Shown here: positions 56,322 to 62,948 of the stretch, piece after piece
Numbering within the stretch: the first letter of the stretch is position 1
How the letters are laid out: each line of letters begins with the position of its first letter
From: Bifidobacterium scardovii JCM 12489 = DSM 13734
Lineage (GTDB): Bacteria > Actinomycetota > Actinomycetes > Actinomycetales > Bifidobacteriaceae
Assembly: GCF_001042635.1 (NCBI RefSeq)
Contig: NZ_AP012331.1
Location: 1,054,001 to 1,118,000, forward strand
Reading direction: 5' to 3'
DNA: 64,000 nt
The notes under the pieces: generated by a model
Told to the model about the DNA's origin: nothing
Seen by the model: only the letters and a program-made list of their open reading frames with translations
Database searches by the model: none
Program-made: the position numbers and the translations under genes

Positions 56322-57998
56322 TCAGGCGGCGCGCAGCGTCAGCAGCGAGATGGCGTGGGCCGGCATGGAGAAGCGCAGCGTGGCGCCCGCCTCGTCGTCC
56401 GAACCGGCCACGTCGAGCACCCGTTCCGGTTCCAGCTCCTGAAGCGCCCCGGCGCTCTTGATCGTCTCGTACTGCGCCCCTTGCGGGTACTTGGGCCGGC
56501 CTTCGGCCTGCCATACGGTGTGCGCGTTCGAGTGGTCGCCGTCGATGCGATAGTGCGAGAGCCGGTACTGGCCGGGCTTCAGGCCCCGGACGTGCAGCTC
56601 GACCTCATGCTCGCCCTGCCGGTCGATGTCGTCGCAGTGCGAGTAGACGAGGATCTGCGTCGCGCCGTCGTCCGAACGGGATGCGTACCCGGACAGCACG
56701 GTCTGTGCCCCGGCGCCGTCGTAATGGGAGGGCGCCTCCTCGTCGAAGTCGTCGATCAGCCTGCGGTCGTAAGCCGGATCCGCCTCGTCGCTGCTCGTCA
56801 TCGCCAGCTCGTGGGAGCCCATGCGCGAGAGCATGCGGAACAGGTTGAACACCGGCTTGTCGATGCCCTGCGTGGAGAAGGTGCGCGTGCCGGCGAAGCA
56901 TTCCTCCTGCGGGAACATGAACGCCCACGCCAGCGGGTACACGTTGGCGCCGAGCTCGCGGCCGAGCTTGTGGATGCCGTTGTATGTGGCGGCCACGTAG
57001 GAGGCATAGTACTCGCTGTTGCGGTACTTCATGTTGGGGTTGTCGGCGATGCCGCCGGCGGCCCATCCGTCCGGGTCCGCCTCGGAGATGACCACGTCGA
57101 GGTCCGAGTACCCCTCCTGGGCGATCACTTCGAGGCCGAGCCGCACCTGATGGACTAGGCTGCCCACGCTGGGCACCGCCTTGGTGGCGGTCACGTCGGC
57201 GGGGAAGACCGATCCCTTGGCGTGGAAGGTGATGAAGTCGAGGCGGGTGCCGGTCTGGCCGGTGCGGGCGTTGCGGCCCTCGCGGCAGTGCCTGAAGAAC
57301 TGCTTCATGAACGCGTTCGCGCCGTTGTGCAGGAAGATGCCGGTGCAGGCCGGGCCGGAGAGGCGGGCTCCGGGCAGCGCCTCGTGCAGGACGTGCTCGG
57401 TGTTGTCGTACAGCGTGCAGTATTCGTCGACGGTGCCCGACCAGTAGAAGATGTCGGGTTCGTTCCACAGCTCGAAATACCATGTGGCGATCTCGTCGGC
57501 GCCGTAGCGCTCGGCCAGATGCCTCGCGGTGGTGAGGATGAAGTCGTGCCACTTGCCGTAGTCCTCGGGCGGGTACGTCCAGCCGATCTCCTTGTATACG
57601 TCCAAGCCGGCGAGCGACGGCTGCTCGTGGTACTTCGGATCGGCGAGATGCTGCGGCATGAAGCCGAGCTCGACGAACGGCTTGTTGCCGGACTCCAGGA
57701 TCGAGTCGAGGATGAGATCGTAGTAGGTGAAGTCGTAGATCACCCTGCCGTCGGAGAGCTCGCGGTAGATGTTCGTCGAGCCGAACTTCTGGGTTCCGGT
57801 GCAGCTGCCGTTGCAGAACATGAAGTGGGTGCGCACGTAGTACGGGGCGTCGTCCAGTCCGCCGAACTTGGCGAGCAGCTCCTTGCCTTCGGGCATGTAG
57901 GTGTAGTTGCACTCGTCGTATCCGATGAAGCGCCACGAATGATCCAGCTCTCCGACCGTCGTTGCGGCGTCGACGCTGATGCGGCAGGTATCGACCAT
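56322..57998 (-). CDS. Glycoside hydrolase family 39 beta-xylosidase-like
   Basis: 558 residues with AAGGAGAACAATC before ATG 57998. TIM barrel with acid/base Glu180 in YFELWNEPD and nucleophile Glu306 in DVVISEADPDG, both at GH39 positions; the C-terminal ~150 residues form a beta-sandwich (ILVYSHCDDIDRQGEHEVELHV). GH39 enzymes release xylose (or iduronate in animals); length and motifs fit bacterial beta-xylosidases. No signal peptide, so it is cytoplasmic. Lies between an AEC carrier and a LacI gene, all on the minus strand. Confidence 0.92.
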   Translation of the reverse strand: MVDTCRISVDAATTVGELDHSWRFIGYDECNYTYMPEGKELLAKFGGLDDAPYYVRTHFMFCNGSCTGTQKFGSTNIYRELSDGRVIYDFTYYDLILDSILESGNKPFVELGFMPQHLADPKYHEQPSLAGLDVYKEIGWTYPPEDYGKWHDFILTTARHLAERYGADEIATWYFELWNEPDIFYWSGTVDEYCTLYDNTEHVLHEALPGARLSGPACTGIFLHNGANAFMKQFFRHCREGRNARTGQTGTRLDFITFHAKGSVFPADVTATKAVPSVGSLVHQVRLGLEVIAQEGYSDLDVVISEADPDGWAAGGIADNPNMKYRNSEYYASYVAATYNGIHKLGRELGANVYPLAWAFMFPQEECFAGTRTFSTQGIDKPVFNLFRMLSRMGSHELAMTSSDEADPAYDRRLIDDFDEEAPSHYDGAGAQTVLSGYASRSDDGATQILVYSHCDDIDRQGEHEVELHVRGLKPGQYRLSHYRIDGDHSNAHTVWQAEGRPKYPQGAQYETIKSAGALQELEPERVLDVAGSDDEAGATLRFSMPAHAISLLTLRAA

Positions 57999-58109: not shown

Positions 58110-59105
58110 TCACATCATCATGTGCAGTCCGGTCATCAGGAACATCGCGATGAAACTGGTGGTGGCCAGCGTGAATCCGGCGAGTTTGGCGTTGTCGAGC
58201 ACGCGGTCGGTGAACAGCGTGCAGAACACGGCGGTCGGCGCGAAGCACATCAGCGCGACGGCCTGCCGGGTCACCGGGTCGAGCGGCAGCAGGAACCACG
58301 CCGCAAGGGCGAACAGCACGCCGAACGGCAGTCTCCAGCCGATGACCTGCAGCAGGTCGCGCACGTCCTTGCCGTTGGCCGGCAGCTCCATGAGCATGCC
58401 GACCATGAGCATCGAGCAGAAGGGATTGGCGTTCGCGAGCGGTTCCAGCACGTCGGACAGCAGAGCGGGGATCGGCAGGTTGAACAGCACCACCAGCGTC
58501 ATGATCATGTACATGTCGAAGGGGCCGGATTTGAGGAATCCCAGGGCGATCGTCCTGAGCCGGGCGCGCAGCAGCGCGCGGCTTTCCTGCTTGGTCGCCG
58601 GCTTGCGGTAGGGGAGCGTCGGCGCGTCGCCGGCATTCTGCTCGGTGAGGGGCTTGTTCGGGTCGATGTGCAGCAGCGAGGTGGTCATCACATTGCTGCC
58701 GGCCGTGGTCATGATCGCGTTGCCGATATCGAACATCGCGCCGGTCACGATGGCTCCGCCGCCGTAGAAGGCCTGCAGCAGCGGGAAGCAGAAGTTGCCG
58801 ATGTTGTAGCCGGAGGAGTTCAGCATCAGGAACGCGCGGTCGGCGACCGGGCGCTTGCGCGAGGCCAGGAACACGAACGGCACGGGGATGAACGCCGCCA
58901 GAAAACCGAACAGGGTGACCCACAGCAGGCTCGCGCTGTTCGGGTTGGTGGCGAACGAGACTAGGATGGACGCCGGCAGCGTGCAGTCGAACACCACCAC
59001 CTGCATGATGCGGTAGTCGCGCGGCCCAAACAGGCCGCACCGCTTGAGCAGGTAGCCGATCAAAATGATCAGCAGGAAGGTCGCTGGTTTAAGTAGCTGT
59101 TGCAC
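58110..59105 (-). CDS. AEC (auxin efflux carrier-type) transporter
   Basis: 331 residues from GTG 59105, with AGGAGC five bases upstream; an earlier ATG (59174) lacks one. About ten hydrophobic helices in two five-helix halves: TFLLIILIGYLLKRCGLFG, FDCTLPASILVSF, a cytoplasmic middle loop with KPATKQESRALLRARL, then FDMYMIMTLVVLFNLPIPALL. NSSGYNIGNFCFPLLQAFYGG is the family core. AEC proteins move organic acids such as malate or malonate. The pairing with GH39 is unusual and hints at export of a sugar-acid or fermentation acid; unproven. Confidence 0.85.
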   Translation of the reverse strand: MQQLLKPATFLLIILIGYLLKRCGLFGPRDYRIMQVVVFDCTLPASILVSFATNPNSASLLWVTLFGFLAAFIPVPFVFLASRKRPVADRAFLMLNSSGYNIGNFCFPLLQAFYGGGAIVTGAMFDIGNAIMTTAGSNVMTTSLLHIDPNKPLTEQNAGDAPTLPYRKPATKQESRALLRARLRTIALGFLKSGPFDMYMIMTLVVLFNLPIPALLSDVLEPLANANPFCSMLMVGMLMELPANGKDVRDLLQVIGWRLPFGVLFALAAWFLLPLDPVTRQAVALMCFAPTAVFCTLFTDRVLDNAKLAGFTLATTSFIAMFLMTGLHMMM

Positions 59106-59616
59106 GATGTGCTCCTGAGAAAGAAATATATGGAGAGATCCATCAACATAGTCGTTTGTCGTTAAACTATACATGAGTTTGCGATAAAAGTATATCCCTG
59201 CGTGTCTTGCAAGTCCGATGAGACGAGAGAGATGGCTGAAAACCTTTTACTTGCAGTACTTATAGCAGGGTTGTCTTCATGTTGCGATCGGTTGCCTGGA
59301 TTCGGATAAAGAAATGAAAACTTAGACTGACTGAAAAAAAATAGGTTTATCTCCGTGAATATTCTTGTTTTTAGACGTAGATTCGCGTAGTGATCTCGAC
59401 GTACTGCTGGAGGTTCTTTGAATTTTCGGCGACGCTCACGGAATGCTGCCGGAGAAGCCAGAACAATGAACGTTCTCTGAAGACACGCCGTGAAAATACT
59501 GTAATTACAGCGAAATACAGCATAATGCGAGAGAGCGTGTTAGAGTTGGGTGCATTCGATGTTGAATCCAAATCCCACTTGTTCAAAGATGAAGTCAGCG
59601 CAAAGGAGCAATTGAG
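59106..59616. other. AT-rich divergent intergenic region
   Basis: A 511-base gap between the AEC gene and the ABC operon, clearly poorer in GC than the rest of the window. It contains the perfect palindrome CTGTAATTACAG (59499-59510) as a possible operator and AAAGGAG (59602-59608) as the ribosome binding site of the next gene. Short open frames here lack ribosome binding sites and recognisable similarity, so I do not call them. Confidence 0.6.
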
Positions 59617-60545
59617 TTGATCGTTAAACGGAATCTGAGCAAAACAGCCAGTCCAGCGGAAAAACGCCGGGGGGGGGGGTAGACCTCGCTCCGTTCTGGT
59701 TCCTCCTGCCGATCATTGCCGTATTCACGGTAATGATTGCAGTTCCAATGATGAGGACGTTCTATTATTCGTTCACTGACTACAACGGATTTAGTCTTCA
59801 TCCAAAATTTATTGGTCTAACTAATTACAAAACCGTGTTTATGGATAAATCTATCCTGACCGGTCTTGGATTCACAATTCTCTTTGCGGTTTGCACGACA
59901 TTTTTCATCACGATCTTTGCCATTCTGCTTGCCGTCGAATTGAATAAGAAATTCTGGGGATGCAATTTCGCCAGGTCCATGTTCTTCTTCTTTTCGGTAC
60001 CGTCGATGGCCCTTCTTGGTTTGGTCTGGCGGTACATCTTCTCCCCGTTGGACACTGGCGTGGTCAATACGGTGATCCGCTGGTTTGGCGGGGAATCCGT
60101 GCCGTGGCTTTCCAACTCCCACTTGGCAAGGTTTTGCGTCATCTTTATCGCCATCTGGGCGCAGATAGGATGGCATGCCACACTGTACATCGCTTACTTG
60201 CAGGCGATTCCCAGCGATTTATATGAGCAGGCCGAAGTGGACGGCGCCTCCTCGCGCCAGCAGTTCATCCATATCACCTTGCCGCAGCTTATGCCTGGCA
60301 TCGTGGTGTCGACATTCCTACTGATGAACGGCGGTTTGAAGATTTATGATCTGCCGTTTGCCATGCTCAACGGAGGCCCGGGTTTCGCGACGAATACCGT
60401 GACCCAATCCATCATCATCCAAGGTATTTCGCAGGGACGGTACGGCATTGGCTCCGCGTTGTCGGTGTTGTTCACCATCGCCGTTGCCGTGGTCGTATTC
60501 GTGCAAATGGGTGTCTCCACCTTTATCGAGAAGAGGTTTGAATAA
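59617..60545 (+). CDS. Sugar ABC transporter permease with poly-G frameshift (likely phase-variable, OFF as given)
   Basis: AAAGGAG is followed, eight bases on, by TTG 59617, reading IVKRNLSKTASPAEKRRGGG and then TAG (59680-59682) straight after a run of 11 G. In the next frame the permease continues without interruption: VDLAPFWFLLPIIAVFTV, six helices in total, EAA loop EQAEVDGASSRQQFIHITLPQL, to 60545. Nine or 12 G would join the frames into a normal 308-309-residue protein. The internal ATG at 59733 would lose most of the first helix. Probably switched by slipped-strand mispairing or rescued by transcriptional slippage. Partner permease starts two bases later. Confidence 0.85.
59669..59679 (+). 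repeat. 11-G homopolymer inside the permease 5' coding region
   Basis: Eleven consecutive G residues, the longest homopolymer I found in the window, placed 18 codons into the gene and immediately followed by TAG in the initiating frame. Confidence 0.95.
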
Positions 60546-60547
60546 TC

Positions 60548-61399
60548 ATGCGCAAGGCATCGAATCTGGGTCGGTCCGCTCGCGAACGGCGCGAATCCAT
60601 ACTGCGGTCCGCCATCATATTACCCATCACCATCGTATGCGCCATTCCGTTATGGTATGTGGTCATCAACACCTTCAAAACCATCAATGACATGGCCAGC
60701 AATCCTCTGGGGCTGCCGACCAAGTGGACATTGGACAACTATCGGCACATTCTGGAGACAATCCCCGTCGGACGCAGTTTCATGAACACCATTATCGTGA
60801 CCGTCGTGGCAGTGGCGATTGAAGTGATCATCGGTTCTATGGCGGCATACGGCATGATCCTGAGGAAGTCGTGGTTCACCGCGGCGATCGGCACTTTGCT
60901 GATGATCGCGTTCGTCATTCCGACACAGGCTATTCTGATCCCGCTGTACAAAATGGAATCGGAGCTGCACCTGGTCAATACGTTGCAGGGACTGATCCTG
61001 CTGTACCTTGGCGGTGCGGTGTTCTGCTACTTCCTGATTGTCGGATATATGCGCAAGCTGCCGTACGAGCTCATCGAGGCGGCCAGAATAGACGGCGCCG
61101 GCCCGCTCCGTATCTATTGGCAAATCGTATTGCCGCTGATCCGGCCCATTCTGGTGACCGTGATCGTGTTCCAGACCATGGGAACGTGGAACAACTTCAT
61201 GTATCCGAACGTGTTCCTGTCGTCGTCGGAGTTGCAGACGATCATCGTGCAGACGTACAACGCGGTGGGGGAGTTCACCACCGATTGGCCGTCCTATATG
61301 ACTATGACGCTCATCGCGCTGATTCCGGTCTTCGTGTTCTTCATCCTATGCCAGCGTTGGATCGTGGCCGGATTGATCGCCGGTTCGGTGAAGGGCTGA
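60548..61399 (+). CDS. Sugar ABC transporter permease (MalG-like)
   Basis: 283 residues. First helix SAIILPITIVCAIPLWYVVINTF, six helices, EAA loop EAARIDGAGPLRIYWQIVLPLIRP (about 178-201) and the terminal GLIAGSVKG. Starts two bases after the stop of the poly-G permease, so its translation may depend on ribosomes finishing that gene; OFF-phase frameshifting could therefore also reduce it. Base composition is less GC-rich than in the other ABC loci here, suggesting a separate, possibly transferred, origin. Confidence 0.92.
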   Translation: MRKASNLGRSARERRESILRSAIILPITIVCAIPLWYVVINTFKTINDMASNPLGLPTKWTLDNYRHILETIPVGRSFMNTIIVTVVAVAIEVIIGSMAAYGMILRKSWFTAAIGTLLMIAFVIPTQAILIPLYKMESELHLVNTLQGLILLYLGGAVFCYFLIVGYMRKLPYELIEAARIDGAGPLRIYWQIVLPLIRPILVTVIVFQTMGTWNNFMYPNVFLSSSELQTIIVQTYNAVGEFTTDWPSYMTMTLIALIPVFVFFILCQRWIVAGLIAGSVKG

Positions 61400-61494
61400 T
61401 CTTCAGTATCACAACAGTTTCCAATCCGGTGGGGTGCCATTCGGCCTCATCATCGGTCAGACAATATTTTGCAGTAATCCAGAAAGGAATAACA

Positions 61495-62739
61495 ATGAAG
61501 TTACGTAACAAGGTGATCGCTGCGGTTTCGATCGTCGGTATGCTCTCGGGGCTTGCCGCATGCGGCAGCGCAAGCGGCGCGACCGGGCAGACCACCATAT
61601 CGTATTTCTCGACATGGAACGGTTCCATGATCAAGCCGGTCATCGAGGAATTCGAGAAGGACAACCCCAATATCAAAGTCGATGTGAGCTTCGCCGCGAA
61701 TCCGGCGCAGTACGCGCAGACGCTGCGTACGCGCATCTCCGGCAATCAGACTCCGGATGTGTTCATGCTTGCTTCGGAAATCCGCGACCAGATGATCGAC
61801 AGTGGCTACACCTTGGATGTCACCAACGAGCCGTTCGTGAAGAACCTGTCGGATAGCAACCGCGAGTATCTGACCAGAAAGGGCAAGGTGTATGGTGCTT
61901 CGATCGGAGCGTGGTCGAACGCCATGGCGTATAACCCCGATCTGCTGGCCAAGGTGGGATACTCGGAGTTTCCGACGACCTGGGATGACTTCATGACCAT
62001 GCTTGAGAAACTCAAGGACGCCGGGATCGCCCCATATGTAACTCCGGTCGATCAGACCCCGCACGAGTTCCAGGCCATGTTGGGGGCACACTATGCCGCT
62101 ACGGGCGACAAGGCGGGTGAGCGTAAGGTGTTCGACGGCAAGTCGACTTTCGAAAAGGAATACACGCCGTACCTGACCAAGTGGAACGATTTGTTCGACA
62201 AGGGATTGGTCAGCCGAGACATGGTCGGTGCCAACGGTGACGATCTGTTCGCGATGTTCACCGCCGGCAAGGTTGCGGTGTACAAGTCCGGCACGTGGGA
62301 TCTGGACCGATTGAAGCAGTCGGGCGTGAAGTTCGGTCTTGCGCCAAACCCTTCCGTAAATGGGGAAGGACAGTATCTGTCCGGCAATGCCTCACAGGGT
62401 ATCGCAATCGCGGCCACTGCCAAGGGTGCCAAGCTCGAGGCTGCCAAGAAGCTCCTGACATTCCTCACCAGTGAAAAGGGTCTGGCTCTTCTGGAGAAGA
62501 ATACGGCGACGGTGATCACTGCGAAGAACTACAAGACCGATGTCATTCCCGAATACAAGGATCTGTATGACAATTACCTGATGAAGGGCAAGTACTATCT
62601 GTCGGTGAACAACTGGCCGAGGGGTACGGATGTGCTGCAGGCCGAGATGTACGCTCAGGTGCAGCGTATGGTTCAGGGTGAGATCACTCCGGCTGAGGTC
62701 GGCAAGGCGATGGATGAGAAACTCGCTACTGTCGGCTGA
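61495..62739 (+). CDS. Sugar ABC transporter solute-binding lipoprotein
   Basis: 414 residues from ATG 61495 with GAAAGGAATAAC upstream. Lipobox GLAACGSA. Binding-protein landmarks: TTISYFSTWNGSMIKPVIEEFEKDNPNIKVDV, PDVFMLASEIRDQMIDSGYTLDVT, VYGASIGAWSNAMAYNPDLLAKVGY and AGKVAVYKSGTWDLDRLKQSG. Last in the operon after both permeases, an order different from the two other ABC loci here (binding protein first). Only distantly similar to those two proteins. A terminator closes the unit. The ligand is unknown. Confidence 0.92.
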   Translation: MKLRNKVIAAVSIVGMLSGLAACGSASGATGQTTISYFSTWNGSMIKPVIEEFEKDNPNIKVDVSFAANPAQYAQTLRTRISGNQTPDVFMLASEIRDQMIDSGYTLDVTNEPFVKNLSDSNREYLTRKGKVYGASIGAWSNAMAYNPDLLAKVGYSEFPTTWDDFMTMLEKLKDAGIAPYVTPVDQTPHEFQAMLGAHYAATGDKAGERKVFDGKSTFEKEYTPYLTKWNDLFDKGLVSRDMVGANGDDLFAMFTAGKVAVYKSGTWDLDRLKQSGVKFGLAPNPSVNGEGQYLSGNASQGIAIAATAKGAKLEAAKKLLTFLTSEKGLALLEKNTATVITAKNYKTDVIPEYKDLYDNYLMKGKYYLSVNNWPRGTDVLQAEMYAQVQRMVQGEITPAEVGKAMDEKLATVG

Positions 62740-62767
62740 TCTACGGCGACGTGTCTGAACGTGTTGC

Positions 62768-62810
62768 AAAGGTCGTGTGCGCAATGCTTGCATCGCGCAC
62801 ACGACCTTTT
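62768..62810 (+). terminator. Rho-independent terminator after the ABC operon
   Basis: AAAGGTCGTGTGCGC and its exact complement form a 15-base stem with a 12-base loop, ending in TTTT. Confidence 0.88.
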
Positions 62811-62948
62811 GACGACTGATGATGCCGCATGCGAATTTCAGGATGACGTTTTGAAAAAAGGCATAAAGACCATTGCGCAATGTCGTCGGGCGGCTCTTTC
62901 GGCGTACAATTCACATTGATTGCATCGCCACCATGCAAAGGAGCCGTT

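Follow-up and report, generated by a model that had tools for sequence, protein, structure and literature searches.

A candidate poly-G phase-variation switch at the head of a sugar importer operon in Bifidobacterium scardovii

The Importer Operon and Its Low-GC Island

The window analyzed here is a 64-kb stretch (64,000 nucleotides) of the Bifidobacterium scardovii JCM 12489T genome, and positions are counted from its first letter. Three genes on the forward strand encode a carbohydrate ABC importer, as one operon combines a PF01547 binding protein with two permeases of PF00528. The frame of permease 1 (59628..60545) is open over 305 codons and matches BPD_transp_1 (PF00528, E 5e-18). Its product is 58-68% identical to the 31 bifidobacterial permeases examined, and its solved relatives, judged by sequence, include AlgM1, a permease of an ABC sugar transporter, and SugA, a permease for trehalose. 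Permease 2 (PF00528, 60548..61399) begins with an ATG 2 bp past the permease 1 stop, and is followed by a solute-binding lipoprotein (PF01547, 61495..62739) whose nearest solved relative is 3quf (E 8e-82). None of the three genes (0 of 3) encodes an ATPase; in bifidobacteria the ATPase is usually encoded elsewhere and shared by importers. Apart from the frame change described below, no stop or frameshift was found in the three operon genes. An inverted repeat after the operon (62768..62809, forward strand) is a likely terminator; it was detected as a reverse-strand self-match and is absent from the pattern-scan output. Upstream of the operon, a promoter scan of the forward strand found no sigma-70-like promoter, which counts against a switch at this site.

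The operon lies in an island of low GC content (59175..62850, ends approximate), with a GC of 0.526 versus 0.643 for the window. The region before the operon has a GC of 0.43 and the three genes 0.51, 0.55, and 0.56, while the flanking genes range from 0.62 to 0.66. When the window is read in 3.7-kb steps, the lowest step coincides with the island (0.523) and the lowest elsewhere reaches 0.582. Such a composition suggests horizontal acquisition. A donor was not found within the genus, where the longer DNA matches are at most 76% identical. Outside the island, a Mem_trans carrier is encoded on the reverse strand (58110..59174), and beyond it lie a GH39 gene (56322-57998) and a LacI regulator. 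Two homologous loci (L030 and L031) adjoin GH43 genes, one with LacI regulators and one with a Melibiase_2 gene.

The G Run and the Reading Frames

Direct reading confirmed a homopolymer of 11 G at 59669-59679 (genome positions 1113669-1113679) on the forward strand, with CGCC before it and TAG after it. Translation of the operon's first gene is predicted to begin at TTG 59617, which has a Shine-Dalgarno-like AAAGGAG 8 nt upstream (59602..59608, forward strand, read directly). In the frame of this TTG the leader ORF (59617..59682) ends at the TAG (59680-59682) directly 3' of the run, giving an "off" product of 21 aa. The run thus occupies nucleotides 52-62 downstream of the operon's first start. 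A previous reading of the sequence alone (the sequence-only reading) had placed 11 G at 18 codons after a well-placed start; the 11 G stand, the start has a good ribosome site, and the distance is corrected to 17 full codons plus one base.

Past the run, the three frames contain 0, 32, and 287 codons before a stop. The TTG frame is the one that closes at once, and the intact permease lies in a different frame with 287 open codons, both as had been claimed. Only one frame of the three yields permease, and it is joined to TTG 59617 by run lengths divisible by three, which bears out the earlier statement that 9 or 12 G would restore a protein of normal length. A rescue start is not apparent, since no ATG, GTG, or TTG was found in the permease frame upstream of ATG 59733. 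Translation from that ATG would begin within the first hydrophobic segment and lose most of it, and no clear ribosome site was found upstream of the ATG. The run itself is placed in the poorly conserved tail that precedes the first membrane segment of permease 1; therefore in-frame length changes should be tolerated.

From these features it had been proposed that the poly-G run makes the permease phase-variable. A homopolymer of at least 8 residues in the 5' part of a coding region, beyond chance, is indeed present; only some of its lengths join start and gene, and the gene downstream of it is otherwise intact. The 287 permease codons, permease 2, and the binding protein have all remained intact, which argues for a switch.

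A Second Importer and the Lipobox Design

Further evidence comes from a second importer of the same genome. On the minus strand at genome positions 2242227-2242236, a run of 10 G directly follows the cysteine that ends the lipobox (SLAAC) in a sugar-binding protein, and the mature protein (PF01547, E 7e-31) lies in another frame than its lipobox start. This gene heads an operon, all on one strand, of two PF00528 permeases, a melibiase/GH31-like gene, and an AraC regulator. The GC of the operon is 0.45-0.50, versus 0.62-0.68 in its surroundings. In two low-GC islands of one genome, an importer operon thus has its first gene put out of frame by a G run close to the start, and the second case argues that the first is a switch as well.

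The placement after the lipobox was searched for in 112 Bifidobacterium genomes with four 15-base patterns, each consisting of two lipobox-type codons and nine G. The patterns matched 8 places in 6 genomes, versus 2 places in total for reversed control patterns. Three of the 8 are binding proteins with a lipobox, and in the other 5 no lipobox-type signal was found. One of the three is the B. scardovii protein just described, and the other two come from other Bifidobacterium genomes. In one (G037), 10 G follow the lipobox and leave an SBP_bac_5 protein (E 1e-62) out of frame, ahead of two ABC ATPase and two permease genes. In the other (G059), 9 G follow the lipobox of an SBP_bac_1 protein (E 1e-37) that remains in frame, ahead of two permease genes and one for a GH38 alpha-mannosidase. 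This in-frame example suggests that a G run is tolerated at the spot after the lipobox. The design shared by these two genomes is a further argument for switching.

Chance Expectation and Reliability of the Count

In the 64-kb window, G/C runs have lengths of 1-6 and then 11, with none between. A first-order model predicts 0.048 runs of at least 11 in 64 kb, and models of orders 3-5 predict 0.001-0.005; for the low-GC island the first-order expectation is 0.0016. The run is also the sole one longer than 5 in the 3.7-kb island. Both its length, 11 versus 6 for the next longest, and its position as the island's only such run, near the first start, support the switch. A plain scan for an 8-G word is by itself not significant, as it gave 4 overlapping matches and at least 4 were obtained in 46 of 100 shuffles.

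A different concern is that the count is wrong. 454 data are weak on homopolymers, and an assembly or sequencing error could hide a real count that is in frame and fixed, with the gene always on. The genome of B. scardovii JCM 12489T (3,158,347 bases) is a hybrid assembly of 9.0-fold Sanger and 28.8-fold 454 data (PMC4392160), and Penno et al. caution that deposited homopolymer counts can be wrong (PMC9187656). That the G count rests on these data weighs against a switch. Conversely, Sanger coverage is nine-fold and the stated error is below 1 in 10,000 (PMC4392160), a run this long should slip regardless of the exact number of G, and the error would have to have occurred in the second importer as well. 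On balance an error of this kind is quite unlikely. The whole genome is a single contig, with 16 runs of at least 9 G when both strands are counted.

Homologues, Paralogues, and Runs Across the Genus

The genomes compared were 112 from Bifidobacterium, one per species, so that B. scardovii is represented by one strain. Viral contigs contained no match to an exact 22-base pattern taken from beside the G run. The close homologues of permease 1 that were examined numbered 31, consisting of 29 loci (the best per genome among the matches listed) and two paralogues of the same genome. The 11-G run is absent from all 31 examined, which counts against a switch; in the 210 nt around the tail, the longest G/C run is 2-5 in these homologues and in one paralogue of 30% identity. 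In seven named-species loci, which largely overlap the homologue set, no runs of at least 6 were found. The two paralogous importer loci lie at 2.74 and 2.92 Mb, have permeases that are 67% identical, and show a GC of 0.64 over 10 kb, close to that of the genome; within these 10 kb no G/C run of at least 8 was found. That these two loci are without such a run speaks for a switch in the island operon.

The absence of the run from the relatives examined would also suit a recent loss of function, in which an acquired operon is decaying and the G run represents a single frameshift in a gene that is turning into a pseudogene. The operon is low in GC and possibly acquired, and the run is out of frame in the one B. 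scardovii sequence examined. Decay is nevertheless unlikely, given that the three genes carry no other stop or frameshift and that runs of 11 and 10 G near the first-gene starts of two operons are unlike random damage.

At least one run of at least 10 G occurs in 108 of the 112 genomes, with 0 to 49 per genome and some at contig ends. From 150 places listed, 80 regions of 10 genomes were surveyed, with one run per region; the survey omitted every place of G002 (35) and of G004 (19), as well as 16 more, most of which lay close to a contig end or next to another run on the list. No ABC-importer gene adjoining a run was found in the 80 regions, 33 of which were covered by tblastn alone. When nine transporter proteins were compared by tblastn with these regions and with 30 partly overlapping one-per-genome loci, one permease-like match was obtained, 878 nt from the run. 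Within 47 of the 80 regions, Pfam searches covered 62 ORFs of at least 110 aa downstream of a run. Of the 65 Pfam-tested members, one each matched BPD_transp_1, SBP_bac_1, and SBP_bac_5, which equals the number of such proteins that had been added, and one MFS protein was matched among the 25 of 31 families listed for the survey set.

A genus-wide habit of placing runs in ABC importers is thus not supported, and because no importer gene was found adjoining a run in the 80 regions, importers appear to be rare targets, which weighs against a switch in this operon. The survey agrees with the earlier remark that a switch in a nutrient ABC transporter is unusual, but phase-variable transporter or nutrient genes have been published for Mycoplasma fermentans, Bacteroides, and Gardnerella, so the remark holds in part.

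Runs were also seen beside other kinds of genes. In L003:1469-3008 (genome 416117), a 10-G run follows an ATG leader and precedes a large out-of-frame protein that begins like a secretion signal and matches no Pfam family. The layout resembles that of the pilus genes and suggests a further switched surface protein. In L027:1390-3009 (genome 2553588), the N-terminal part of a sugar transferase (PF02397) contains an in-frame 9-G run, which may switch a surface polysaccharide. Two runs with C on the coding strand lie upstream of apparent starts, one of 10 about 70 nt before a serpin (L021, genome 2278051) and one of 9 about 33 nt before a GH127 protein (L029, genome 2877324); these could tune expression. 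An 11-G run of L023 (genome 2381464) lies in a small ORF, and the adjacent frame continues with a CPRC motif. In G088, a nine-G stretch occurs in three similar copies with alike flanks within about 30 kb (L099, L100, and L101) and belongs to a repeated element.

Comparison With Known Phase-Variable Systems

Slippage of poly-G runs was said to switch pilus genes in bifidobacteria, and this has been demonstrated experimentally in B. breve (Penno et al., PMC9187656). In a single-colony culture the G11 pilus locus was reported to be mixed, with 37% G11, 59% G12, and 3% G10, in-frame constructs make pilus-like structures so that the frame controls pili, and transcription drops past the leader stop (PMC9187656). 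Like bbr_0113 and bbr_1889 of B. breve, which carry G11 and G10 runs in the first gene of an operon, the B. scardovii locus has a leader ORF with start signals and an out-of-frame downstream ORF without translation signals of its own (Penno et al., 2022, PMC9187656). This published precedent supports a switch. In B. breve the genes encode surface pili, and both the length mixture and the phenotype were demonstrated (PMC9187656); the present genes encode a nutrient importer with a candidate switch. Pilus clusters of B. dentium are also described with poly-G stretches (PMC12104195).

Homopolymers can also cause transcriptional slippage or ribosomal frameshifting, by which every cell would make some full permease from unchanged DNA. 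A stop codon placed immediately 3' of the run would fit such a shift. In B. breve, by contrast, pili were reported to appear when the G count of the DNA joined the frames and not in the parent (PMC9187656), and for the B. scardovii run such recoding is highly improbable.

Other bacteria offer parallels to a switched transporter. In p78 of Mycoplasma fermentans (Theiss and Wise, 1997, as cited in PMC2831843), a 5' homopolymer in a gene of an ABC transporter operon causes frameshift switching; the tract there is a poly-A of 7 and the gene codes for a surface lipoprotein, whereas in B. scardovii a poly-G lies in a permease and, at the sister locus, in a binding lipoprotein. The glycan-use genes of Bacteroides likewise make nutrient acquisition phase-variable in a gut bacterium, through DNA inversion rather than the slippage proposed for B. 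scardovii (PMC11868660). The same 2025 review also mentions phase variation of a Gardnerella sialidase and of GlpK from M. tuberculosis (PMC11868660).

Gardnerella is a relative within the bifidobacterial family. Its tract genes have runs of at least 8, with length variation shown for one gene, and predicted transporters and pullulanases are tract-associated; unlike the intragenic run of B. scardovii, about 70% of its G/C runs lie upstream of genes (PMC11287997).

A literature search of listed titles and abstract openings did not find a switched sugar importer or permease in Bifidobacterium. Other G runs inside genes of B. breve are noted by Penno et al. without being specified, so switched importer genes may already have been noticed (PMC9187656). 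The slippage mechanism and phase-variable transporters are already known, and a switched bifidobacterial sugar permease would be the new part. Also new are the low-GC island, the second out-of-frame importer of the genome, and the lipobox design in two further Bifidobacterium genomes.

The Proposed Switch and Its Implications

Taken as a whole, the locus is probably best explained as a permease-permease-binding-protein operon whose first gene undergoes slipped-strand phase variation. The proposal that poly-G makes the permease phase-variable is supported in part: sequence, geometry, the B. breve precedent (PMC9187656), and the fit of the second importer all favor it. In this model the 11-G run would be a contingency locus that often gains or loses Gs during replication. 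At lengths not divisible by three, translation from the TTG would stop soon past the run, while lengths divisible by three would give complete permease 1. In the off state permease 1 would be missing, about 860 nt of its gene would go untranslated, and permease 2 would probably be lowered by polarity; the importer would then be non-working and uptake lost even with the binding protein made. Within a clonal population, some cells would use a particular sugar or oligosaccharide and others would not, presumably to the benefit of the population. Since slippage in B. breve was reported to be unaffected by carbon source (PMC9187656), selection rather than induction would be expected in B. scardovii.

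A broader idea, offered tentatively and open to considerable doubt, is that in bifidobacteria nutrient importers come under slippage control when they are newly acquired, whereas paralogues of long residence remain constitutive, so that clonal populations might hedge over foreign diets. The run would arise where the first gene tolerates changes in length, either in the permease tail or at the position after the lipobox cysteine. The lipobox placement provides a simple pattern for finding more switched importers.

If the run varies, sugar use in B. scardovii would change at random and reversibly and be inherited, and deposited genomes would misreport the sugars that strains can use. In that case run lengths in population DNA could reveal selection by diet.
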